DNA from: Povalibacter uvarum
GTDB lineage: Bacteria > Pseudomonadota > Gammaproteobacteria > Steroidobacterales > Steroidobacteraceae
Assembly: GCF_014202975.1 (NCBI RefSeq)
Contig: NZ_JACHHZ010000005.1
Coordinates: forward strand, 372,001-436,000
Length of the DNA: 64,000 nucleotides
Direction of reading: 5' to 3'
This document shows positions 10,102 to 34,169 of the stretch, piece after piece; positions within the stretch are counted from its first letter, which is position 1, and the number at the start of each line of letters is the position of its first letter. Under the pieces are notes generated by a model that had not been told where the DNA came from, did no database searches, and saw only the letters and a list, made by a program, of their open reading frames with translations. Made by a program: the position numbers and the translations under genes.

Positions 10102-12447
10102 ATGGCCGCCATGAACGTGCGCGGCTTCATTCTTCAGGCGAGCTACCGGGTCATATCCGGCCCGGCGGGGCAGGTCCCCGTCATACATATCCATGGCCGG
10201 CTGGAGGATGGGGGTACGTTCCTGGTCCGCGACGACCGGCAGCGGCCGCATTTCTACATTCGAGCGGCGGATGCGGGCAGGGCCCGGCCACTGAGAATTC
10301 CCGAGCCGCAACCCGTTGATCGGCGGACCTTCGATGGCGAGCCCGTGTGCCGGATCGAGGCCGAAACGCCTTCCGACATTCCGGCAATCCGCGACCGGCT
10401 GCATGCGGCGGGCATCGAAACCTTCGAAGCCGACGTGCGCTTCGCGATGCGCTACCTGATCGAGCGCGGCATCAAGGGCAGTTGCGTGATCGAAGGGGAG
10501 GCAGTGCCGGGCAAGGGCATCACCTGGGTCTTCGACAATCCAGTCATCCGGCCCGCGATGCTGACGATCGAACCCCGGGTCTTTTCATTCGACATCGAGA
10601 CGGACGCCAAGGGCGAAAAGTTGCTGGCCATCTCGATGTATGCGCCCGGCATCGACGAGGTGCTGATCGTCGACAGCAGCAATCGCGAGATGCCCGAGCG
10701 AGCCATTCGCTGCGAGAACGAGTACGCCGCGCTCGAGAAGTTCTGCGAGCGGGTGCGCGTCTACGACGCGGATGTGCTGACGGGCTGGAACATCATCGAT
10801 TTCGATCTGAGTGTCCTGCAGCGCATTGCGGCGCGGGTACGTCATCCGTTCGTCCTCGGACGCGATTCGGGGCCCATTCGAATCCGCAAACCGGAAGGCT
10901 ACTTCGGGAGCGGGCAAGCGAACGTGCCCGGTCGGCTCGTGCTCGATGGCATCGATCTGTTGCGCGGTGCGTTCATTCGCATGGACGACTACTCGCTCGA
11001 TGCCGTAGCGCGAGGAGTCGTCGGCGAGGGCAAGGCGGTTCACGGTGACGTGCGTGATCGCCTCGGCGAGATCATTCACAACTATCGGAACGATTTGCCG
11101 GCGTTTGCGCTTTACGCACGCACGGACGCACGGCTTGCGTACCAGATCGTGGAGAAGCTGAACGTCGTGCAGCTTGCGCTAGCTCGCAGCCAGCTGAGCG
11201 GCATGACGCCGGATCGGGTGGCCGCCAGCATTGCGTCGTTCGATTTCCTCTATCTCTCGGAGCTCGAGCATCGACGGATCGTGGCGCCGAGCGTGCGTTC
11301 GAGCGATTCGAGCGTCTACGCGGCGCAGCAGGGCGGACACGTCCTCGAGCCGATCGCCGGCTTGCATCGCAACGTCTGGGTCTTCGACTTCAAGAGCCTG
11401 TACCCGAGCCTGATCCGCACGTTCAATATCGATCCGCTGTCGTATGTCGCGAATCCCGCCGCGACCGACGATCTGATCCAGTTGCCGGGCGGCGCATTCC
11501 GGCGCGAACCCGCAATCCTGCCGCGCATGCTCGACGATCTGTTCCCAAGGCGGGAAGCGGCGAGGAAGGCGGGCGACGACATCGCATCGAACGCCATCAA
11601 GATCCTGATGAACTCGTTCTATGGCGTGCTCGGCACGCCCGCGTGCCGCTTCTACAATCCGGCCCTCGCGAACTCGATCACGGGGACGGGGCGCGAAATG
11701 CTGTTGTGGTCGAAGCGCTGGTTCGAAGCGGCGGGATTCGTCGTGCTCTACGGTGATACCGACAGCTTGTTCGTGCATTCCGGTGTCGATGATCCGGCGG
11801 CGGCGCAGGAGCAGGGTCGCCAGCTCGCAGTCACCCTGAGTGCGCAGATCGCGCGCTACATCGAAGAACGCTGGCGAGTGACGAGCCGGCTCGAACTGAG
11901 ATTCGAGAAGCTGTACTCGCGGTTGTTTCTCGCGCAGGCCCGAAACAGCACGCGGGGCGCGAGCAAGCGCTACGCCGGAATGCGTCACGGCCGCGACTCA
12001 GCCGAGTTCGTCGGCATGGAAGTCGTGCGCAGCGACTGGACGCCGCTCGCGAAGCAGGTTCAGCGCGAGCTGTATCAACGGCTGTTCACCGATCAACCGG
12101 TGGATGTGTATCTCGCCGACGTCGTTCGACGACTGCGCGTCGGGGAGTTCGACGATGCGCTCGTCTATCGCAAAGGGCTCCGCAAGGATGCGGAGGAGTA
12201 CACGGCAACGACGCCGCCACATGTCGCGGCAGCGCGAAAATCATCGCAGCCGCTCGGTCGCACGATCAGTTACGTGATGACCACTGGCGGCGCCGAACCG
12301 ATCGACAACATCCAGCATCCGATCGATCGCGAGCACTACGTCACCAAGCAGGTGAAGCCGGTTGCTGAGCCGGTGCTGGCGACGCTGCGGCTCGATTTCG
12401 AGAAAGTGATCGGGGACACGCGGCAGATGGATTTGCTGGGGATGTAA
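10102..12447 (+). CDS. polB: DNA polymerase II (family B)
   Basis: A 781-residue family B polymerase, close to the usual length of about 780. The exonuclease motifs are present: ExoI FSFDIETD, ExoII DADVLTGWNIIDFDL, ExoIII YARTDARLAYQI. The polymerase motifs A (DFKSLYPSLIRTF), B (NAIKILMNSFYGVLG) and C (LYGDTDSLFV) are intact, as is the C-terminal palm/thumb segment with KRYAGMRHG. In E. coli the protein is SOS-induced and restarts replication over damage; I did not recognise a clear LexA box upstream. A second ATG at 10111 is an alternative start. The gene stands alone and converges on the lipase operon with only 5 bp between stops. Confidence 0.95.
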   Translation: MAAMNVRGFILQASYRVISGPAGQVPVIHIHGRLEDGGTFLVRDDRQRPHFYIRAADAGRARPLRIPEPQPVDRRTFDGEPVCRIEAETPSDIPAIRDRLHAAGIETFEADVRFAMRYLIERGIKGSCVIEGEAVPGKGITWVFDNPVIRPAMLTIEPRVFSFDIETDAKGEKLLAISMYAPGIDEVLIVDSSNREMPERAIRCENEYAALEKFCERVRVYDADVLTGWNIIDFDLSVLQRIAARVRHPFVLGRDSGPIRIRKPEGYFGSGQANVPGRLVLDGIDLLRGAFIRMDDYSLDAVARGVVGEGKAVHGDVRDRLGEIIHNYRNDLPAFALYARTDARLAYQIVEKLNVVQLALARSQLSGMTPDRVAASIASFDFLYLSELEHRRIVAPSVRSSDSSVYAAQQGGHVLEPIAGLHRNVWVFDFKSLYPSLIRTFNIDPLSYVANPAATDDLIQLPGGAFRREPAILPRMLDDLFPRREAARKAGDDIASNAIKILMNSFYGVLGTPACRFYNPALANSITGTGREMLLWSKRWFEAAGFVVLYGDTDSLFVHSGVDDPAAAQEQGRQLAVTLSAQIARYIEERWRVTSRLELRFEKLYSRLFLAQARNSTRGASKRYAGMRHGRDSAEFVGMEVVRSDWTPLAKQVQRELYQRLFTDQPVDVYLADVVRRLRVGEFDDALVYRKGLRKDAEEYTATTPPHVAAARKSSQPLGRTISYVMTTGGAEPIDNIQHPIDREHYVTKQVKPVAEPVLATLRLDFEKVIGDTRQMDLLGM

Positions 12448-12450
12448 CTC

Positions 12451-12520
12451 CGTCACTCCCGCGAAAGCGGGAGTCCATGTCTTGAATTCAGATGGACACC
12501 CGCGTTCGCGGGTGTGACGG
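12451..12520. repeat. Paired dRS3-like palindromes (locus 1)
   Basis: Two inverted copies of a hairpin repeat face each other: CGTCACTCCCGCGAAAGCGG-type at 12451-12479 and its inverse at 12493-12520. The form, ATTCCC or CTCCC arms around eight bases, resembles Neisseria dRS3. Five other loci in this window carry the family. Here it lies inside the 3' end of the lipase-like gene and supplies that gene's stop codon. Confidence 0.8.
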
Positions 12521-13241
12521 AGCGAAACGCCCCCGACCGCAGAAAACAAATTGTCCGCGCAATCACCTCCCGCCGATTCATCATGAACGTATGGGTCGTG
12601 TGAAGCAGCAGGAAATCCTGCATCCCCTCCAGCTTCGCGGCAGTCACCGACACCTTGCCGTCATCCGGCCCCGGAATCAGTCGCGACAGCAACGGATTGA
12701 CCGAACGATCGCCAGCGATGACGCCCACTTCGAAGGGCGGCGGGCCCAGTCGCCGAGGCAGCGAGTCACCTCCTGTCGTAAGTTGCCGTGCAGCGGGTGG
12801 ATGCAATGTCTCGGGAATTTCCCAGGCCACGAGGGTGTCGGCGAGCTCGCTGCCCTGGTTCGGCGGACCGAGCATGACGACACGGCCGATGTGCGGCAGG
12901 CTGCCATCGGCGACCAATTGTCGGACGACGATGCCGCCGAGCGAATGAGTCACGAAGTGAATGCGCTCGGGCCGTAGCGTCCAGCAACGCTCGATTGCGG
13001 GCAGCACTTCGTTGGCGGCCAGTTCTTCGATCGATGCAGCGGACGATGTGTAGTCGATATTGCAGACATCGTAGCCGGCGCGCTCCAGGCCCTTCGCCAT
13101 GAAGAACATCGAGGCAGCGGATCGGCCGAGGCCATGCAATACGACCACGTGCTCCTGCGCGGGATCGGTCGGGGACTCGCAGGCGATGCTCACGGTTGAA
13201 AGCATTGAGAGCGACGCGACTGCGAGACCGGGCCACTTCAT
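12453..13241 (-). CDS. Exported lipase-like alpha/beta hydrolase
   Basis: A 262-residue protein with a signal peptide, possibly a lipoprotein (Cys21). It has an alpha/beta-hydrolase core: VVVLHGLGRSA is the oxyanion-hole HG segment. HFVTHSLGGIVV holds the nucleophile Ser100 in a T-H-S-L-G elbow, so the first Gly of GxSxG is replaced. LLHTTHTFMMN near the C-terminus offers the catalytic His. It fits the EstA/lipase-type family that acts on acyl esters. It is the last of three genes joined by 4-bp ATGA overlaps, after the ketosynthase fusion and a 306-residue unknown, so it may release or exchange an acyl product. The last 22 residues (SVTPANAGVH onward) are encoded by an intergenic palindromic repeat and are probably not native to the family. 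Confidence 0.82.
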   Translation of the reverse strand: MKWPGLAVASLSMLSTVSIACESPTDPAQEHVVVLHGLGRSAASMFFMAKGLERAGYDVCNIDYTSSAASIEELAANEVLPAIERCWTLRPERIHFVTHSLGGIVVRQLVADGSLPHIGRVVMLGPPNQGSELADTLVAWEIPETLHPPAARQLTTGGDSLPRRLGPPPFEVGVIAGDRSVNPLLSRLIPGPDDGKVSVTAAKLEGMQDFLLLHTTHTFMMNRREVIARTICFLRSGAFRSVTPANAGVHLNSRHGLPLSRE

Positions 13242-14158
13242 GCGCAGACTTCCATTCTCATCGCAGCCGGTGACTTCGCTCGGACTTTGCGCTGCGCCTT
13301 CTTGTGCTCCACGAGAATGGCGTGCTGGATCTCGGTCGCCAGACCGTGGAGCACCAGGCGATAGCCGGCACGCAGCGTCGATTCAGGCACCATCGGGTGG
13401 CGATTGTTGATGAGCCCTGTTGTCCACGGCGTGTTCAACAGCTTCGCGACATACAGCCCGATCGTTTCGTCGAGCTGCAGGGAGTTCGAGGCGCGCCAGA
13501 AGTCGTTGTCGCTGAGGAACAGCTGATAGACCGGCGTGTAGAGCTCGATCGCCGTCTGCAAGTCGATGAAGTTGGTCCAGCGTCGGGGCATGGCTTCGAA
13601 CGCCGGCGGTTGTTCGCTGATTCCGCTGAAGTCCAGCTCGTCGATGGGTGCCATCTCGAGCCCCTGTTCGCGCAGCTGCCGGTTGAGCTCGATCACGAGA
13701 TTGAACAAGTTGAGATCGTGCTGCAGGTAGAGGTCGTTGCGCACGTCGCGGAGCTCCTGCGGCTTCAGCGGCGTCAGTGACATCGAGACACCCCGGGTGT
13801 TGCGCGCGATGAAGTTCAGGATCTCCGATCCGAGGTGAAAGTGACGGAAGATGAGCGTATTCGCCTGCGGCGACAGCCACGTGCGCATGTTCCATTCGAG
13901 CAGCCGATGCAGCAGCCGCGAAGACGTCAGTGCACGCGGCAGCACGATGCGCGCGCACTGGCAGAGGACGACCGCCGCTCGTGCGAACGGTCGCACGAGC
14001 GGCAGCAGGAACTGCCGCGATCGGGAACTCGAATCCGTCAGCCAGGCGCGCTTGCACTCTTCAGCGAGCGGCAGGCTCCGATCGAGATACAACGCGAGCC
14101 ACGGACTGGGATCGCGCGGATCATGCGGTTGTCGCAGGAAGTCGGGCAGCTCGCTCAT
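13238..14158 (-). CDS. Uncharacterised His/Glu-rich helical protein in ketosynthase operon
   Basis: A 306-residue soluble, mostly alpha-helical protein that I do not recognise. Clusters of potential metal ligands lie in predicted helices: His106, His108 and Glu112 (FRHFHLGSE), His147 (LQHDLNLFN), and His271, Glu276, His279, Glu284, His285 (HGLATEIQHAILVEH). The spacing E-I-Q-H and H-x-x-x-x-E recalls non-heme iron or ferritin-like proteins, but no exact family motif is present. A moderately hydrophobic stretch (about 50-75) could be a buried or membrane-peripheral helix. The start at 14158 is fixed by the ATGA overlap with the ketosynthase fusion, and the stop overlaps the lipase start likewise. 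The three products are therefore probably made together. Confidence 0.8.
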   Translation of the reverse strand: MSELPDFLRQPHDPRDPSPWLALYLDRSLPLAEECKRAWLTDSSSRSRQFLLPLVRPFARAAVVLCQCARIVLPRALTSSRLLHRLLEWNMRTWLSPQANTLIFRHFHLGSEILNFIARNTRGVSMSLTPLKPQELRDVRNDLYLQHDLNLFNLVIELNRQLREQGLEMAPIDELDFSGISEQPPAFEAMPRRWTNFIDLQTAIELYTPVYQLFLSDNDFWRASNSLQLDETIGLYVAKLLNTPWTTGLINNRHPMVPESTLRAGYRLVLHGLATEIQHAILVEHKKAQRKVRAKSPAAMRMEVCA

Positions 14159-15999
14159 AGCGCATGCTCCATCTGGAGCAGGTACAGATCCGCTGTCGTT
14201 CGGGCGACCTCGATGATCGACCTCGCGCAGGCGGGATCGATCGTCACCGCGATCTCCACTGCCTGAAGCCACCGCTGCAGATGGCTCGTGTCGTTCTCGC
14301 CATGGTAGGTGAGGAATCGCAACGCGCTCTGCGGGATGTCATCGAGCTTGCGCAACAGCGGCAGCAGGGCGGGCACGATGCGTTGGCCCGTTCCCTCGAC
14401 GATGTAGGTGGCGCCGAGCAGCCCCAGGGGGTTGGCATCGTTCGCGAGCCGATGCAGATAGGCGTTGAGCGCTTCGCCCCCTGGATTGCGCCGCAGGCTG
14501 TCGATGTTCGACTCGGTGCCGCCTGCGCGACGGTAGTCCTCGAATAACACCTGGTAGTCGAATTGCTCATCCGCGGCGTGAGTGCGCATGAGTTCGGTCA
14601 ATGCAGCGAACTTCGGATCGAGCTGGGCTGCTGCTGCGCGCATCCATTGCGTACCCTGTCGAACCTGCGGAATCCAGCTCGACATCCAGCGAACGTAGTC
14701 CGCCCGGCTGAAGTCGGCGCTGCGAATGCGATTCAGAAGATTCGTCCGCCACGCTCGCGAACGGTAGTCGTGCCAGATGTTCGCCAGCTCCGTCAGCAAC
14801 GGGCGCAAGGGTTCCGGGGCCGATTGCGCCAGATGCGGCGGTTCGCTCTTGCCGGGCAGCAAGGTCGTCACCGACTGGGCCGCGACGACTTCGAACATCA
14901 TGAACGCGACAGTGAAGCGGCCTGATTCCGGGACGAAACACAGGATGCGTTCGCCGGGGCGCAACGTGCGCTCGCGCATGAAGTCCGCGAGCATGATGAA
15001 GATCGACGCGGCGCCCGTGTTACCGCGCCAGGTCAGATTGCTGTACCAGCGGTCTGTCGGAATCGCGAGGCCGGCCTTCTGCATGAGGTCTTCGACGACA
15101 CCGGCGAATTTCCGCGATGAGTAGTGGCACAGGAAGTGCTCGATGCTCTTGGGATCGATGTGCCCGCGCTGCACGAGCTGTGCGTACTCATGAATGCCGA
15201 GCTCGAACAGGTGCGGCAGCAAACGTATGTCCTGCCGCAGCAGGAAGGCTCCATCAGCCTCGGCGTCCGCGAGCGATGGATAGTCGAGATAGGAGTCGCT
15301 CGGATTGTCCGCGGACTGACCGATCTGCATGCACACGGGCAGATCACCGCCGAACGATCGGCTGTGAACCCATTTCAGCTGCAGTGAAATGCCCGTCGCC
15401 GCCGGTTCCTTGCCGAGCAGCCATGCACCCGCACCGTCAGACAGCATCCAGCGCAGGAAGTGAGCGTCGAAGTCACTCTTGTAGCCACGCGGCGCGAATC
15501 GCGAGCGCTTGAACATGCGCGACGGCAGCTCACTGGTGACGACCAGTGCGTTCTTGCCGCCGCCGAGTTCGAGTGTGCTTGCGGCGTGCTGAAGCGCCGC
15601 GACGCCGGATGCGCACACTCCCTGATGGCTGCTCGCATGAACAGGCGGGGCGGCCAGTTCGCCCTGCACCATGCTTGCGAAGCCCGGCATCCCGAGATCG
15701 CCGCCGGACGTTCCGGTACAGAGCACGTCGATCTGCGACAACTCGACATCGCTCCCCGCGAGGCAATCGGCCGCCGCAAAAGCAGCCATCGTCGCCGCGG
15801 GAAATACCGTGCTGCCGTTGGTGTCGATCGCGTAGTGGCGTGTCTGGATGCCGTTCTCCGCAAGGATGCGCCGCTTGATTCGCGCGGAAGACGCATCGAG
15901 CGGCGCGATGAACTGATCCATCGCTTCGTTGCCCACGGGCGGGCCCGGCAGGAACGTACCTGCGGACGTGAGGAAGACCGACTGGAATTGCACGCACAT
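14155..15999 (-). CDS. Ketosynthase III fused to a heme-oxygenase-like di-iron domain
   Basis: A 614-residue two-domain protein. Residues 1 to about 385 form a FabH/OleA-type beta-ketoacyl synthase III. The catalytic triad is intact: Cys129 (SHQGVCASGVAAL), His292 (FLCHYSSRKF) and Asn327 (WRGNTGAASI), with the GTSGG and SDGAGAWLL segments expected around them. Residues about 400-614 are all-helical and end with LLGATYIVEGTGQRIVP (Glu535) and YHGENDTSHLQRW (His566-x3-Asp570-x2-His573). These are the Glu and HxxxDxxH features of heme-oxygenase-like di-iron (HDO) or iron-containing redox enzymes. KASIII enzymes condense acyl-CoA or acyl-ACP units, and HDO proteins oxidatively cleave or decarboxylate small acids. 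The product is unknown. It is the first gene of an overlapping operon, divergent from an XRE regulator. The start ATG at 15999 is the first that fits the domain. Confidence 0.88.
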   Translation of the reverse strand: MCVQFQSVFLTSAGTFLPGPPVGNEAMDQFIAPLDASSARIKRRILAENGIQTRHYAIDTNGSTVFPAATMAAFAAADCLAGSDVELSQIDVLCTGTSGGDLGMPGFASMVQGELAAPPVHASSHQGVCASGVAALQHAASTLELGGGKNALVVTSELPSRMFKRSRFAPRGYKSDFDAHFLRWMLSDGAGAWLLGKEPAATGISLQLKWVHSRSFGGDLPVCMQIGQSADNPSDSYLDYPSLADAEADGAFLLRQDIRLLPHLFELGIHEYAQLVQRGHIDPKSIEHFLCHYSSRKFAGVVEDLMQKAGLAIPTDRWYSNLTWRGNTGAASIFIMLADFMRERTLRPGERILCFVPESGRFTVAFMMFEVVAAQSVTTLLPGKSEPPHLAQSAPEPLRPLLTELANIWHDYRSRAWRTNLLNRIRSADFSRADYVRWMSSWIPQVRQGTQWMRAAAAQLDPKFAALTELMRTHAADEQFDYQVLFEDYRRAGGTESNIDSLRRNPGGEALNAYLHRLANDANPLGLLGATYIVEGTGQRIVPALLPLLRKLDDIPQSALRFLTYHGENDTSHLQRWLQAVEIAVTIDPACARSIIEVARTTADLYLLQMEHAL

Positions 16000-16108: not shown

Positions 16109-16132
16109 CCGGGTATCGTCTGGTGATACCGG
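16109..16132. promoter_or_regulatory. Inverted repeat, candidate operator between XRE gene and ketosynthase operon
   Basis: CCGGGTATC at 16109-16117 and GATACCGG at 16125-16132 form an inverted repeat with a 7-bp centre (GGTATC-N7-GATACC). It ends 11 bp before the regulator's ATG, overlapping its ribosome-site region, and sits about 110 bp upstream of the divergent ketosynthase start. That is a suitable place for autoregulation. Confidence 0.5.
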
Positions 16133-16143
16133 AGGGAAGCGGC

Positions 16144-16896
16144 ATGGCGGATTCGAAAACCCTGGTGCGCAACCTGAAAGCGCGACTGCGGGCCGACGAC
16201 GTGACCTATCGCGAGCTCGCGAAGCGGCTGGGCGTCAGCGAGCCCACGATCAAGCGCGATCTCAGCCGTGGTGCGTTCACGCTGCAGCGGCTCGATCGCA
16301 TCTGCGAAGTACTCGACGTCGCGCTCGAGGATCTGCTGCAGGATCCGCAGGAGAGCCGGCTGATCACGCGGCTGAGCGACGAGCAGGAGCGGATGCTCGT
16401 GGCCAATCCGAAGCTCCTGCTGGTGACCTACCTGATCGTCAACGACTGGAAATTCCCGGAGATCGTATCGACGTTCCAGATCAGCGATGCGGAGCTCATC
16501 GATCTGGTGCTGAAGCTCGAGAAGCTGGGCATCGCGGAATTCCGCAAGCCGCAGCGGCTGCGCAAGCGGACATCGAGAAATTTCTCGTGGCGCAAGGATG
16601 GACCCATCCATGGATTCTTCGTGCGACGCGTCGCGCCGGAGTTCTTCAATGCCGGCTTCGACGGCGACGGCGACGAGTTCCGGTTCATCGGCGGTCTGCT
16701 GTCGAAGGATTCGCTGCGGCGATTCAAGTCCGGTATCGAGCGACTCGCCGCGGAATTCGAAGTGCTTGCCCACAACGACGCGCGGCTGCCGCTCGATGAT
16801 CGCAACGGCTGCACGGCGATCCTTGCGCTGCGCGCCTGGGAGTTCTCGGAGTTCACCCGGCTGCGGCGGACCGCCCAGGCGGGCAGGCGCCGCTGA
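16144..16896 (+). CDS. XRE-type transcriptional regulator
   Basis: A 250-residue protein. Residues about 8-62 form a Cro/C1-type helix-turn-helix, with TYRELAKRLGVSEPTIKRDL covering the recognition helix region and TLQRLDRICEVLDVALEDLL completing the five-helix domain. The remaining 180 residues do not match a sensor domain I recognise. They contain a second helical motif (WKFPEIVSTFQISDAELIDL) that looks like a second small winged-helix or HTH, then a beta-rich tail. GGAGGG stands before the ATG at 16144. It is divergent from the ketosynthase operon with a 144-bp shared promoter region, so it is the likely regulator of that operon, though its ligand is unknown. Confidence 0.85.
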   Translation: MADSKTLVRNLKARLRADDVTYRELAKRLGVSEPTIKRDLSRGAFTLQRLDRICEVLDVALEDLLQDPQESRLITRLSDEQERMLVANPKLLLVTYLIVNDWKFPEIVSTFQISDAELIDLVLKLEKLGIAEFRKPQRLRKRTSRNFSWRKDGPIHGFFVRRVAPEFFNAGFDGDGDEFRFIGGLLSKDSLRRFKSGIERLAAEFEVLAHNDARLPLDDRNGCTAILALRAWEFSEFTRLRRTAQAGRRR

Positions 16897-25559: not shown

Positions 25560-28975
<3,416 letters not shown>

Positions 28976-28984
28976 TCTCTGACC

Positions 28985-29002
28985 ATCCGCTATCCGCCAT
29001 CC
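28985..29002 (+). repeat. ATCCGCT heptamer repeat, short copy
   Basis: ATCCGCT-ATCCGCC-ATCC lies in the 44-bp gap between fadB and the acyl-CoA dehydrogenase gene. It is the same unit as the longer arrays at 49274-49424. Confidence 0.6.
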
Positions 29003-29019
29003 CCTTCTTCGAGCGATCC

Positions 29020-30168
29020 ATGATCCCAAGAACCCTGTTCACCTCCGATCACGATGAATTCCGCAAGAACATCCGTCGCTTCATCGATGAGGAATGCGTC
29101 CCGCATCATGCGCGCTGGGAAGAGCAGCAGTACGTGGACCGCTCGCTCTGGAATCGCGCCGGTGAGCTCGGATTTCTGTGCCTGACGATTCCCGAGGAAT
29201 ACGGCGGCATGGGCGGCGATCGCCTGTACAGCACGGTGCTGATGGAAGAGCAGACGTACGCCGGCGCCACGGGCCCTGGCTTTGCCGTTCACTCGGACAT
29301 CGTCGCGAACTACATGCTGAACTTCGGAACGGAAGATCAGAAGCGGCACTGGTTGCCGAAGATGGCGGCGGGCGAGGCGGTCGGCGCCATTGCGATGACC
29401 GAGCCCGGAACGGGATCGGACCTGCAGTCGATCAAGACCCGCGCGCAGCTCGACGGCGATGACTACGTGATCAACGGGTCGAAGATCTTCATCACCAACG
29501 GCTATCTCTCCGACGTCGTGATCGTCGCCGCGAAGACCGGCGAAAGCGGCTCGGGAGCGAAGGACATCTCATTGATCCTCGTCGAGAACGGCACGCCCGG
29601 TTTCACGAAGGCAGCCCCGCTGAAGAAAGTCGGCATGAAAGCGCAGGACACCTGCGAGCTGTTCTTCCAGAACGTTCGCGTGCCTCGCTCGAATGTGCTG
29701 GGCGGCGCGGACGGCGAAGGTCGTGGCTTCATCATGCTGATGAAGGAACTGGCCTGGGAGCGCCTCATCATCGCCATTCTCTCGATGGCGGGCGCGCAGG
29801 CTGCACTGAACTGGACGATCGACTACACACGAAGCCGCAAGGTCTTCGGCAAGCCGGTCGTCGACTACCAAAACTCGCGTTTCAAGCTCGCCGAGATGAA
29901 GGCGGACATTGCTGTTGCACAGGTGTTCGTGGACCGCTGCCTCGAGCTCGTTCTCCAGGGCAAGCTCACACCGGAAGCGGCCGCGGCCGCGAAGCTCTTC
30001 ACCTCGGATCTGGTCTGTCGCGTCGTCGATGAATGCGTGCAGCTTCATGGCGGCTACGGGTATATGCTCGAATATCCGATCGCGCGGGCCTTCATCGACA
30101 ATCGCGCCAGCCGGATCTACGGCGGCACGAACGAGATCATGAAAGAGCTGATCGCAAGAACACTGTAA
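29020..30168 (+). CDS. Acyl-CoA dehydrogenase (long-chain type)
   Basis: A 382-residue FAD enzyme. AMTEPGTGSDLQSIKT and YVINGSKIFITNGYLSD are the FAD/substrate strands; QLHGGYGYMLEYPIARAF and RIYGGTNEIMKELIAR end the C-terminal domain. The position of the medium-chain catalytic Glu is Gly here (IYGGT). The base is instead likely Glu247 in MKELAWERLIIA, as in long-chain and isovaleryl-type dehydrogenases. It oxidises a saturated acyl-CoA to enoyl-CoA, passing electrons to ETF. It lies between fadB and the acyl-CoA ligase on one strand, so it is probably cotranscribed. Confidence 0.92.
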   Translation: MIPRTLFTSDHDEFRKNIRRFIDEECVPHHARWEEQQYVDRSLWNRAGELGFLCLTIPEEYGGMGGDRLYSTVLMEEQTYAGATGPGFAVHSDIVANYMLNFGTEDQKRHWLPKMAAGEAVGAIAMTEPGTGSDLQSIKTRAQLDGDDYVINGSKIFITNGYLSDVVIVAAKTGESGSGAKDISLILVENGTPGFTKAAPLKKVGMKAQDTCELFFQNVRVPRSNVLGGADGEGRGFIMLMKELAWERLIIAILSMAGAQAALNWTIDYTRSRKVFGKPVVDYQNSRFKLAEMKADIAVAQVFVDRCLELVLQGKLTPEAAAAAKLFTSDLVCRVVDECVQLHGGYGYMLEYPIARAFIDNRASRIYGGTNEIMKELIARTL

Positions 30169-30247
30169 GAGCAGATCCGGAGCGGGACGGTCGGCCAGGG
30201 AGCGCGCCGGTGCATCGTCGCGCGCCGCACTCGACGTCCGGGGGAAG

Positions 30248-31939
30248 ATGATGACTGTGCAGACGCTACGCACTCCGATCGAAAGCCTGCGCCAATGGGC
30301 GACGACGACGCCCGATCGTATCTACATGACTCAGCCGCACGCGGACGGGTCTGTCGTCGACTACGCATGGGCGCAGGTCTGGGACGAGTCGAGACGCGTC
30401 GCTGCTCATCTCGTCTCATTGAATCTTCCCCGCGGCAGCAGCATCGCGCTCTATGGCCGCAACAGTGCGCACTGGATCATGGCGGACCTTGCGATCTGGA
30501 TGGCGGGCCATGTCAGTGTGCCGCTCTATCCGACGCTGAGCGCCGATGCGGCGAAGTACATCCTCGATCACAGCGAAGCGAAACTGCTCTTCATCGGCAA
30601 GCTCGACGGCAAGGCCGACAGCTGGAGCGAAGTGCGCCCCGCATTGCCGCCCGGGTTGCCGCTGATCCGCCTGCCGATGTCCCCTGAGATCGACGGACCG
30701 ACATGGAGCGAACTGCTCGCCCGTCATGAGCCGATTGCGACTCCTGTCGAGCGCGATCCCAATGCGCTGGCGACGATCATCTATACGTCCGGCACGACGG
30801 GCCGGCCGAAGGGCGTCATGCACAGCATGCGTTCGATCTCGGCGCCTTGCCTCGTGACGGCTGAGCTGTGGGGAACATGTTCGGAAGACCGGATGCTGTC
30901 GTACCTGCCGCTCGCGCACATCGCGGAGCGCGTCGCACTCGAAGTGCCGTCGCTCATCTTCGGCTTCCACATCTTCTTCAACTACAGCCTCGAGACGTTC
31001 CCGGAGGATCTGAAGCGCGCGCGGCCGACCCGATTCTTCTCCGTGCCCAGGTTGTGGACGCGGTTCTATCTCGGCGTGCATCAGAAGATTCCCGCGGAAC
31101 AGCAGGAGGCGATGTTCTCTGACCCGCAGAAGGGCGCGGCCGCGAAGAAGGGTATTCTCGCCAGTCTCGGTCTCGATGCGGCGACGATCGGCTTCACCGG
31201 TGCGGCGCCGCTGCCTGCCCACATCATTGCGTGGTATCGCAAGCTGGGCCTCGAACTGATCGAAGTGTTCGGCATGACCGAGAACGCTGCTACGTCACAC
31301 GCCTGTCGCCCGGGCGATGTGAAGCCGGGCTATGTCGGCACGCCGCTGCCCGGCGTCGAATGCCGGCTTTCCGAACAGGGCGAGGTGCTCGTCAAGAGCC
31401 CTGGCCAGATGATGGGCTACTACAAGATGCCGGGCCAGATGGAAGCCGAGATGACGCCGGATGGCTTCTTCCGCACGGGTGATCGCGGCGAAATGGACGA
31501 GACGGGTCGCCTGCGCATCACAGGTCGGGTCAAAGAGCTCTTCAAGACGAGCAAGGGCAAATACATCGCGCCGGTCAGGATCGAGAACAAGCTGGCGCTG
31601 CATCCGCTGATCGAGGTCGTCTGCGCAACCGGTCCCGGTGAGCCGCAGCCTTTCGCGCTGATCATGCTGCCGTTCGACCGTCATCAGCAGGTCCGCAGCG
31701 CGCCGCAGGCTCGCGACCAGCTCGAACAGCAGTTCGTCGCGTTGCTCGACGAGGTGAACCACGGGCTGGAAGACCACGAACGGCTCGACTACCTCGTCAT
31801 CGTGAAGGACCAGTGGACCATCGAGAGCGGCATGCTGACGCCGACGATGAAACTGCGTCGCAATGTCATCGAGGATCGGTATCTCTCGCGGGCCGGGGCG
31901 TGGCGCGACGCGGGGAGAAGGGTGATCTGGGAGGAATGA
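30248..31939 (+). CDS. AMP-forming long-chain acyl-CoA synthetase
   Basis: A 563-residue ANL-superfamily ligase that activates fatty or other carboxylic acids to CoA thioesters using ATP. The P-loop TIIYTSGTTGRPKGVMHS is intact. GFTGAAPLPAHIIAWYRKLG and LIEVFGMTENAATSH match the A4/A5 motifs. FFRTGDRGEMDETGRLRITG is the hinge motif, and the C-terminal lysine region includes FKTSKGKYIAPVRIENKL. GGGGGAAG precedes overlapping ATGs at 30248 and 30251. It provides substrate for the dehydrogenase and fadB just upstream. Confidence 0.9.
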   Translation: MMTVQTLRTPIESLRQWATTTPDRIYMTQPHADGSVVDYAWAQVWDESRRVAAHLVSLNLPRGSSIALYGRNSAHWIMADLAIWMAGHVSVPLYPTLSADAAKYILDHSEAKLLFIGKLDGKADSWSEVRPALPPGLPLIRLPMSPEIDGPTWSELLARHEPIATPVERDPNALATIIYTSGTTGRPKGVMHSMRSISAPCLVTAELWGTCSEDRMLSYLPLAHIAERVALEVPSLIFGFHIFFNYSLETFPEDLKRARPTRFFSVPRLWTRFYLGVHQKIPAEQQEAMFSDPQKGAAAKKGILASLGLDAATIGFTGAAPLPAHIIAWYRKLGLELIEVFGMTENAATSHACRPGDVKPGYVGTPLPGVECRLSEQGEVLVKSPGQMMGYYKMPGQMEAEMTPDGFFRTGDRGEMDETGRLRITGRVKELFKTSKGKYIAPVRIENKLALHPLIEVVCATGPGEPQPFALIMLPFDRHQQVRSAPQARDQLEQQFVALLDEVNHGLEDHERLDYLVIVKDQWTIESGMLTPTMKLRRNVIEDRYLSRAGAWRDAGRRVIWEE

Positions 31940-31958
31940 GCCGGATGCTGCTGGCTAT

Positions 31959-32028
31959 CGTCATTCCCGCGAAAGCACGAATCCATCCGGTTCCAGGACA
32001 TGGATTCCCGCTTTCGCGGGAATGACGG
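31959..32028. repeat. Paired dRS3-like palindromes (locus 3)
   Basis: A partly decayed copy (31959-31988) and an intact inverse copy (31999-32028) of the ATTCCC-N8-GGGAAT palindrome stand in the gap between the two acyl-CoA ligase genes. Confidence 0.8.
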
Positions 32029-32057
32029 AATCTCTCTTTCCAACTATCAGTTCTCTC

Positions 32058-34169
32058 ATGCCCCACCCCCTCGACTCCTTCTTCCGCCCGCGCTCGATCG
32101 CATTCATCGGCGCAACGGAGCGCTCGGTCTGGACACGCGCGGCGCTCGCGAATCTCCGGACACTCGGCTACGAAGGCAAGTTGCATCTCGTGAACCGAAA
32201 GGGCGGCGAGGTGCTTGGACAGCCGGCGGCAACATCCGCCGCGTCGATCGGCGAGCCCGTCGATGTCGCGCTGGTGATGGTGCCGTCGGAAGTCCTTCTC
32301 TCCACGTTTCCCGATCTCGAGGCTGCAGGGATTCGCAACGCAGTGGTGCTCAGCTCCGGCTTCGCGGAGTCGGGGAAGGACGGTGCGGCACGCCAGCAGG
32401 CCTTGAGCGATGCTGCACGTGAGCACGGCGTTTCGCTGCTGGGGCCGAACTGTCTCGGCTTCGTGAACTTCGTCGATCGCACGCCGGTGTGGACTGTGGG
32501 TGCGAGGCCGCCGGTCGGTGCAAGCCGTATCGCGATCGTTTCCCAGAGCGGGGCGCTCGCCGCGCAAATGTCTTATTTCGCGGGCTGGCAGGGCATCGGT
32601 CTCACTTACATGATCTCGACCGGTAACGAGGCGGGCATCGACGTTGCGCAGGCGATCGACTATCTGGCTGATGAGCCGCGCACGCAGGCTATCGCCGTAT
32701 TCCTCGAGTCGGTGCGCGATCCTTCGTCTTTCGAACGCGCAGCGTTGCGCGCGAAGCGGGCCCGCAAGCCGATCGTCGTGCTGAAAGTAGGCACGAGCCA
32801 AGTCGCGATGAAGGCCGCGCAGGCACACACCGGCTCGCTCGTCGGTGACGATCGTGTCTTCGATGCGGCTTGCCAGCGCATGGGGCTGATTCGCGTGCGC
32901 TCGCTCGAAGATCTGATCATCACCGCGGAAGTTGCAGCGCGGACCGGGCCGATCAGCGGCGGGCTGGGTGTGGTTTCTCTGTCTGGTGGTCTCTGCGAGA
33001 TCGCTGCTGATCGTGCCGAAGCGGAAGGGGTCGAGTTGCCCGGACTTGAACCGGCAACGATGGCTGCGCTCGAGAATGCGTTGCCGGGATTCGGCACGCC
33101 GCACAATCCGCTCGATGTGACCGGCGCGGTGATGTTGCAGCCGGAGCTGCTCGAGCGCTCGCTCGAAGTCCTCTACGCCGCATCCAATCTGTCCGCGATG
33201 GCATCCGTGCTGGATGTTCCTTCCGCGCCCGAGGATGACAGCGCGCTTCTGAGAAAGCTCGTCGCCTCCGTGAGCGCAGTGCAGGGGCGACATGCGAAGC
33301 CTGGGGTCATGTTCAGCCACACGATGCGTCCGATGAGCGCGATGTCACAGCAGATCGCCCGCGAAGCGAATCTCAGCTACCTCCCATGTGGAGTGCATCA
33401 CGGCGTTACGGCTCTCGGGCGAGTTCGTGCCTGGACGGAGATGCTTGATCGACCAACCCGAACGCGGGATCAAGCAGTTGCGCAGGACGTCAGGCCTCAA
33501 TCCGAACAACAGACACTCGAGTTCCTCGCATCGCGCGGCGTGCCGGTGATTCCGACGCAGATCGCTCGCAGCGCCGACGATGCTGTCGCGATAGCGCAGC
33601 GCTTCGGAGCTTCTGTTGCACTCAAGATCGCGTCGGCGGATATCCAGCACAAGAGCGATATCGGCGGCGTCATCCTCGATGTCCGCGGTGATGCCGCAGT
33701 TGCCGATGCGTATCGGATGATCTTGCAGAACGCTTCGCGCGCGCGTCCGGAGGCACGAATCGACGGCGTTGCGATCGCGCCGATGCGCAAGGGCGGAGTC
33801 GAGCTCTTCGTCGGCACGATGCGCGATCCTCAGTGGGGCCCGGTGCTGGCTGTTGGGCTCGGAGGCGTGTGGGTTGAAGCGCTGCGCGATACGAGTCTGC
33901 GCTTGCTGCCTGTGACCGCCTCGGAAGCAGAAGAGATGCTGAGTGAGTTGCGTGGCTCGAAGCTGCTCGATGGATTCCGCGGCGCGCCCGCTGTTGATCG
34001 CAAGGCAGTGGCGCGTGTCATCGCGGCCATAGGTGAGGCAGCGCTGGTGCTCGGACCGGAGCTGCTGTCGCTTGAGGTGAATCCGTTGCGAGCGAGCGGG
34101 GATGAAGTGGAAGCACTGGATGGATTGGTGGAGTGGGGAGGCCAGCCAGCTGGCCGGCTAGCAGGCTAG
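32058..34169 (+). CDS. NDP-forming acyl-CoA synthetase (fused alpha-beta, acetate-CoA ligase family)
   Basis: A 703-residue fused enzyme. The alpha half has the CoA-binding Rossmann part (FRPRSIAFIGATERSVWTRA, LLGPNCLGFVNF) and the succinyl-CoA-synthetase-like domain (IAIVSQSGALAAQM, STGNEAGIDVAQAIDYL). AQAHTGSLVGDD is at the place of the phosphohistidine loop. The beta half is an ATP-grasp domain (ALKIASADIQHKSDIGGVIL, then GVELFVGTMRDPQWGPVLAV and SLEVNPLRAS). These enzymes interconvert acyl-CoA and acid with ADP or GDP. The start at 32058 is used; the frame also opens at 32022 within the repeat. The last eight or nine residues (QPAGRLAG) and the stop are encoded by a GCTAGC palindromic repeat. 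Confidence 0.85.
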   Translation: MPHPLDSFFRPRSIAFIGATERSVWTRAALANLRTLGYEGKLHLVNRKGGEVLGQPAATSAASIGEPVDVALVMVPSEVLLSTFPDLEAAGIRNAVVLSSGFAESGKDGAARQQALSDAAREHGVSLLGPNCLGFVNFVDRTPVWTVGARPPVGASRIAIVSQSGALAAQMSYFAGWQGIGLTYMISTGNEAGIDVAQAIDYLADEPRTQAIAVFLESVRDPSSFERAALRAKRARKPIVVLKVGTSQVAMKAAQAHTGSLVGDDRVFDAACQRMGLIRVRSLEDLIITAEVAARTGPISGGLGVVSLSGGLCEIAADRAEAEGVELPGLEPATMAALENALPGFGTPHNPLDVTGAVMLQPELLERSLEVLYAASNLSAMASVLDVPSAPEDDSALLRKLVASVSAVQGRHAKPGVMFSHTMRPMSAMSQQIAREANLSYLPCGVHHGVTALGRVRAWTEMLDRPTRTRDQAVAQDVRPQSEQQTLEFLASRGVPVIPTQIARSADDAVAIAQRFGASVALKIASADIQHKSDIGGVILDVRGDAAVADAYRMILQNASRARPEARIDGVAIAPMRKGGVELFVGTMRDPQWGPVLAVGLGGVWVEALRDTSLRLLPVTASEAEEMLSELRGSKLLDGFRGAPAVDRKAVARVIAAIGEAALVLGPELLSLEVNPLRASGDEVEALDGLVEWGGQPAGRLAG

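Follow-up and report, generated by a model that had tools for sequence, protein, structure and literature searches.

Organization of the locus

The DNA analysed here, hereafter called the window, is a stretch of 64,000 nucleotides from Povalibacter uvarum (contig NZ_JACHHZ010000005.1, positions 372,001 to 436,000 of the forward strand). It contains an operon whose first gene encodes a ketosynthase (KS) fused to a heme-oxygenase-like di-metal (HDO) domain; a gene of family DUF6999 and a lipase-like hydrolase gene follow, and an XRE-type regulator gene is divergently oriented (Table 1). KS, HDO and DUF6999 belong to a conserved system that we consider real, in which a presumed DarB-like cyclase is accompanied by an HDO domain and DUF6999 in place of DarA.

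Table 1. Position and orientation of the operon genes, protein parts and promoter feature in the window
Feature	Position	Strand	Basis or remark
KS-HDO fusion gene, 614 aa	14155-15999	minus	open reading frame and Pfam
StlD/DarB-like ketosynthase part of the fusion	residues ~8-372, about 14884-15978	minus	
HDO domain part of the fusion	residues ~395-614, 14158-14817	minus	
DUF6999 (PF22523) gene, 306 aa	13238-14158	minus	4-bp overlap with fusion gene
Alpha/beta-hydrolase (lipase-like) gene, 262 aa	12453-13241	minus	4-bp overlap with DUF6999 gene
XRE-type regulator gene (HTH_26), 250 aa from ATG at 16144	16144-16896	plus	divergent from fusion
Candidate operator, perfect inverted repeat GGTATC-N7-GATACC	16112-16130		in divergent promoter region

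The fusion protein displayed Pfam matches to ACP_syn_III (residues 127-203), ACP_syn_III_C (279-355) and Haem_oxygenas_2 (PF14518, 'iron-containing redox enzyme'; 439-606, E 2.8e-11), all above cut-off. The second gene was a full-length member of DUF6999 (E 1.7e-123, 411.5 bits against a gathering cut-off of 27). The first-pass annotation had described three overlapping genes, the first encoding a ketosynthase III (KASIII) with the triad Cys129, His292 and Asn327 and a C-terminal helical domain with Glu535 and an HxxxDxxH motif; all of this was borne out by the Pfam matches, the two 4-bp overlaps and the residue conservation reported below.

Conservation of the KS, HDO and DUF6999 genes

Scanning of genome contigs yielded 294 relatives. 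The best 80 loci by similarity to the fusion were analysed, with flanks of at most 10 kb (some contigs being short); this set was rich in Achromobacter and, owing to the way it was chosen, favours the fused form. DUF6999 was found downstream of the fusion in 79 of the 80 loci, the two matches lying 0 to 497 bases apart, and in the sole remaining locus (L075) the contig ended 103 bases past the fusion match. Full-length fusions were present in four of 196 genomes of the order, that of the window included. Nine out of 398 genomes of the phylum carried DUF6999 and the same nine carried KS and HDO, as a fusion in seven and as adjacent genes in two. The genome of Caulobacter vibrioides, included as a control, had matches to PF22523 and PF14518. 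A Pseudoalteromonas plasmid displayed KS, HDO and DUF6999 as three separate neighbouring genes. The conserved unit is KS plus HDO plus DUF6999. Over 79 loci, the pairwise distances of KS and DUF6999 showed a correlation of 0.97; as no pair of families compared fell below 0.899, this value reflects common descent and not a particular coupling of the two.

As to the question raised earlier, whether the gene then without a name and the XRE gene travel with the fusion, the former, which is DUF6999, does, and the latter does not, being found beside the fusion in the window and three of the 80 loci. The lipase-like gene, also regarded at first as a member, is a local addition at the window locus and lies outside the conserved system: it was absent from all 80 related loci (tblastn, E <= 1e-5), which ruled it out as a component.

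A desaturase (PF00487) was encoded upstream in 74 and a hydroxylase (PF04116) nearby in 73 of the 80 loci, and 69 displayed the full order hydroxylase-desaturase-fusion-DUF6999. Counted as present were the desaturase of L038, the match of which spans two frames, and both genes of L092, the frames of which hold a stop near their start. The desaturase query found no match in the window genome; three PF04116 genes were present there, and at one locus (L114) the hydroxylase query matched with 28% identity. Against PDB sequences, neither the one desaturase nor the one hydroxylase query tried gave a match at E up to 1. Directly upstream of two split KS/HDO/DUF6999 sets, a His/Glu-rich, membrane-like protein of 185-188 aa without Pfam match was encoded (L111:9439-9996 (+) and L125:8441-9007 (-)); it may represent a membrane metal enzyme that has gone unrecognised, in the place of desaturase and hydroxylase.

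The ketosynthase

The closest solved relative of the window ketosynthase was StlD (5gk0, E 8.6e-63). Its best NCBIfam model was the StlD/DarB model NF005293 with 334 bits, while the best FabH-type model reached 89 bits; a best match to FabH profiles, as expected of a FabH-type KASIII, was not obtained, and the FabH/OleA framing of the first-pass annotation had to yield to StlD/DarB. Like StlD/DarB ketosynthases, the window protein is a KASIII with a Cys-His-Asn triad, and Cys129, His292 and Asn327 were invariant in the 12 fused and three split ketosynthases aligned. In a tree of 22 sequences, with three FabHs as outgroup and OleA not among them, these 15 ketosynthases formed one group; a KS from a Streptomyces plasmid was placed next to it, with three DarB-like proteins beside them. 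Residues common to the four DarB-like ketosynthases and absent from the three FabHs included R183, S187, C223-M224, Q256, S294, W318 and P357-E358-S359.

DarB-type enzymes condense two fatty-acid-derived units, and cyclohexanediones are intermediates toward dialkylresorcinols, as described in PMC3949708 and PMC4414361. In view of its affinity to StlD/DarB, a cyclohexane-1,3-dione-type ring would be a likelier first product of the ketosynthase than a linear beta-keto acid.

Exchange of the DarA partner

In Azoarcus, darB and darA are termed DAR-cyclase and DAR-aromatase (PMC3949708), and neither darA nor darB mutants of P. chlororaphis produced resorcinol (PMC6403133). The 398 genomes of the phylum contained 12 further DarB-like ketosynthases without HDO (E <= 1e-40, at most three candidates scored per genome), of which 11 came from separate genomes and the twelfth was an additional copy in G574. 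The protein beside the DarB-like gene of L005 served as DarA-like query and was searched in 19 genomes and, separately, in that of the window. A DarA-like gene adjoined all 12 DarB-like ketosynthases without HDO (gaps of -16 to 87 bases) but none of the eight KS-HDO loci outside the window in this sample; the query found no match in seven of those eight genomes, nor in the window genome. The DarA-like partner that accompanies StlD/DarB ketosynthases was therefore found beside none of the nine KS-HDO loci. Both systems occurred together in genome G574, which carried a DarA/DarB-like pair apart from its KS-HDO-DUF6999 cassette; its DarA-like gene was found only beside the second KS.

Because few candidates had been scored per genome, the 12 DarA-type genomes were searched again for HDOs with PF14518 and the family's own profile. 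Eight displayed PF14518 matches, one of which was the G574 fusion. In seven of the 11 DarA-only genomes an HDO was present well away from the KS, at a distance of about 2 Mb in G567 and on different contigs in the rest. The nine-versus-12 split corresponds to 1/C(21,9) = 3.4e-6, a figure that ignores common descent and is hence no true probability. Among 16 other fusion-carrying genomes, two displayed a DarA-like gene, both times beside a DarB-like gene, and three Streptomyces plasmids also paired KS with a DarA-like gene. This exchange (12/12 versus 0/9) is read here as a replacement: HDO and DUF6999 would most likely stand in for DarA, the resorcinol aromatase.

The HDO domain and its metal site

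The AlphaFold2 model of the HDO domain (44 alignment rows) displayed a mean predicted local distance difference test (pLDDT) score of 95.1. Its top PDB matches in Foldseek were 3dde, CtCADD (template modelling score, TM, 0.79-0.87), UndA (E 4.2e-5 to 1.4e-4) and HrmI. The prediction thus supports the heme-oxygenase-like helical fold of the HDO superfamily, and the comparison with UndA and other HDO folds proposed by the first-pass annotation came out in its favour, including a plausible di-metal site.

Conservation was assessed on 86 HDO domains, namely those of the window, the 80 loci, L003, L004 and three separate (split) HDO genes. H474, E478, D481, E535, H566, D570 and H573 were identical in all 86, as were W409, Q445, Y489, N569 and Y606. 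Five other, uncharacterised PF14518 proteins from the same order displayed His at position 481, Tyr at 474 and His at 445. The His/Asp correspondence at 481 was also found in a profile alignment to 3dde and against CADD and MboA in a mixed profile (A5, which includes three family members); 3dde carries His at the position equivalent to 474.

The ligand sets given in a 2026 review of HDO enzymes are 3H/3C and 3H/4C (histidines/carboxylates; PMC13108848). At the usual ligand positions, the sequences of the present family predict 2H/4C (E478, D481, E535, H566, D570 and H573), which could become 3H/4C if the invariant His474 binds. In a word search of the text available from this review, 'ketosynthase', 'fusion' and 'resorcinol' were absent (PMC13108848).

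HDO genes of the same order also occurred in another setting, in which genes for an AMP-ligase-like protein, a PF14518 HDO and a short-chain dehydrogenase stood in a row (L008:206-2097, L009:2079-2927, L014:599-2070). This was established by Pfam on parts of these three loci, and similar open reading frames were seen by eye in further loci.

DUF6999

The AlphaFold2 model of DUF6999 (40 rows) was nearly all helix, with a mean pLDDT of 89.0. It displayed no fold match in the PDB (best Foldseek E 0.57), and a profile search of PDB sequences yielded nothing at E up to 10. DUF6999 was also considered as a diverged HDO; this was rejected, with an hhalign probability of 0.15 and Foldseek HDO entries at E above 1 and TM below 0.2. 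Residues invariant in 40 DUF6999 sequences included H106, H147-D148, E205, D217, D219, D230-E231, H254, H271, E276 and H279, a set that would suit an enzyme, perhaps a metal-containing one. No publication containing the word DUF6999 was found in the open-access literature, and its linkage to KS-HDO is reported here.

Proposed pathway and alternatives

Domains, predicted fold, invariant triad and metal residues, gene linkage and partner exchange were computed, and from them we infer the chemistry and regulation of the system. The reading that we prefer, tentatively, is that of a three-component lipid cyclase/oxidase composed of KS, HDO and DUF6999, with HDO standing in for DarA. The StlD/DarB-like KS would, as its family suggests, form a 2,5-dialkylcyclohexane-1,3-dione-type ring from two thioesters derived from fatty acids. 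To judge from the partner exchange, the fused HDO would use a di-metal O2-activating site to oxidise this ring, or a precursor of it, the most likely outcome being a dialkylresorcinol-type aromatic. DUF6999 would be the constant third component, its linkage suggesting that it probably takes part in the same oxidative step. The membrane desaturase and hydroxylase, where present, would tailor the chains, and the divergent XRE protein would act on the operon through the palindrome in the lineage of the window.

Several points weigh against this reading. The window ketosynthase remained under the curated cut-off of NF005293 (334 versus 450 bits), whereas the DarB-like protein from L005 reached 600 bits on this model; the product of its clade may therefore be another ring, or no ring at all. 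The metal site, changed as it is, could differ from a canonical O2-activating one, and DUF6999 is tied to the oxidative step by linkage alone. The DarA-like query displayed no Pfam or NCBIfam match and owes its name to its location next to DarB and to PMC3949708. Since the sampled KS-HDO ketosynthases form one group, the exchange may be a single evolutionary event; two components (HDO and DUF6999) stand against one (DarA), and the exchange could mark new chemistry or a change of product rather than a replacement of DarA.

This last thought leads to the best surviving alternative, which we nevertheless find rather unlikely: the KS makes a cyclohexanedione-type ring, and HDO with DUF6999 hydroxylates, opens or oxidatively decarboxylates it, the product being a lipid of a new class and perhaps of the membrane. 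The remodelled metal site, with Asp481 and His474 in all 86 domains, suggests altered chemistry, two components take the place of one, and lipid-remodelling genes were found near the triad in four of ten neighbourhood maps. However, an exchange with DarA most simply means the same job, and these neighbours varied from locus to locus and may be due to chance, only nine map proteins having been family-scanned.

The first-pass annotation had suggested a linear route: two acyl units would be condensed by the KS in the manner of OleA, and the HDO would then act like UndA on the resulting linear beta-keto product, yielding a hydrocarbon or ketone through decarboxylation or cleavage. The HDO model does match UndA in Foldseek, and UndA is a fatty acid decarboxylase according to PMC13108848. 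This route appears improbable all the same: the KS scored and grouped with StlD/DarB rather than FabH (in the tree without OleA; no search for OleB/C/D was made), the metal residues depart from the 3H/3C set reported for UndA (PMC13108848), and the exchange with DarA favours oxidation or aromatisation of a ring. A signal lipid, also named as product at that stage, is possible, and the interpretation then given is partly supported overall. Least of all do we expect a non-catalytic HDO domain with a degenerate site that serves as scaffold or channel for the KS, as an Asp in 86 of 86 domains where five other PF14518 proteins carry His might suggest, since seven potential ligands were invariant throughout, the three separate HDO genes included, whereas drift would be expected in a site without function.

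Extending the cyclase/oxidase reading, we would suggest with greater reserve an undescribed and widespread bacterial route to lipids. The ring product of the KS would be oxidised jointly by a DUF6999 protein of unmatched fold and a di-metal HDO whose ligand arrangement is new, with Asp replacing a core His and a further His added; DarA would be displaced, and the resulting lipids, for signalling or the membrane, would constitute a new class.

Regulator and surroundings

The XRE gene was found beside the fusion, without desaturase and hydroxylase, in the window, two Steroidobacter loci (L031 and L034) and one uncultured one (L032). In the window, 144 bases separate the fusion and XRE genes and contain the inverted repeat. 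Allowing up to two mismatches, the window contained three matches to the repeat where 0.9 were expected (a count of three was reached in 5 of 100 shuffles), and only that at 16112-16130 was exact. The sequence ACGATACC was identical in the four intergenic regions aligned (window, L031, L032 and L034). The other arm of the repeat read GGTATC in both the window and L032, where the whole repeat is perfect; in L034 it was GGTATA, with one mismatch, and in L031 AGTATA, with two. In the lineage of the window, this palindrome is probably the site through which the XRE protein regulates the operon.

The lipid-remodelling genes of the four maps (nine chosen proteins scanned for families) were of several kinds. 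Genes for MFS, acyltransferase and AMP-ligase proteins, which we take to be Aas/LplT-like, were found beside the triad in L124:4697-8098 (-), from a genome that belongs to a different class of the same phylum (G418), and in L052:5873-9902 (+), from a metagenome-assembled genome of Moraxellaceae. A diacylglycerol kinase gene overlapped the DUF6999 gene in L038, and one frame next to DUF6999 combined an FA_hydroxylase domain with a PAP2 phosphatase domain (L127:4161-5549 (-)). These neighbours point weakly toward a membrane-linked product.

Elsewhere in the window, a family B DNA polymerase gene identified by Pfam (10102-12447 (+)) directly adjoined the end of the operon. At 12450-12560, where the end of the hydrolase gene meets a facing open reading frame, the translation by eye resembled what we take to be a common REP-type repeat. 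A run of acyl-CoA genes of ordinary type (3HCDH/ECH, acyl-CoA dehydrogenase, AMP-ligase and CoA-ligase-like) occupied positions 26765-34169.

Significance and comparison with known systems

No description of a KS-HDO-DUF6999 system was found in the open-access literature. The findings place family DUF6999 in a functional context and assign it a strict partner in the genomes, and HDO enzymes, of which approximately a dozen are functionally validated according to PMC13108848, would be extended to ketosynthase-coupled lipid chemistry. A second, iron-dependent route to resorcinol-type lipids is suggested, which searches keyed on DarA/DarB pairs would miss. Some lipids of this type act as signals, as stated in PMC4414361; if the reading is true, lipids for signalling or membranes would be reached by a new route.

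Compared with the DarA/DarB (StlC/StlD) pathway, the system shares the ketosynthase branch, the triad, the DarB-type residues and a partner gene beside the KS. It differs by a fused or adjacent HDO and DUF6999 instead of DarA, and by a KS that falls under the family cut-off. With the HDO superfamily (CADD, UndA, HrmI and MboA) it has in common the heme-oxygenase-like helical fold and retains Glu478, Glu535 and HxxxDxxH, in contrast to the replacement of the usual His by Asp481, the additional invariant His474 and the fusion to a ketosynthase. UndA, the 1-undecene synthase, resembles it in its HDO fold and fatty-acid setting but, according to PMC13108848, uses a free fatty acid and displays a 3H/3C ligand set.

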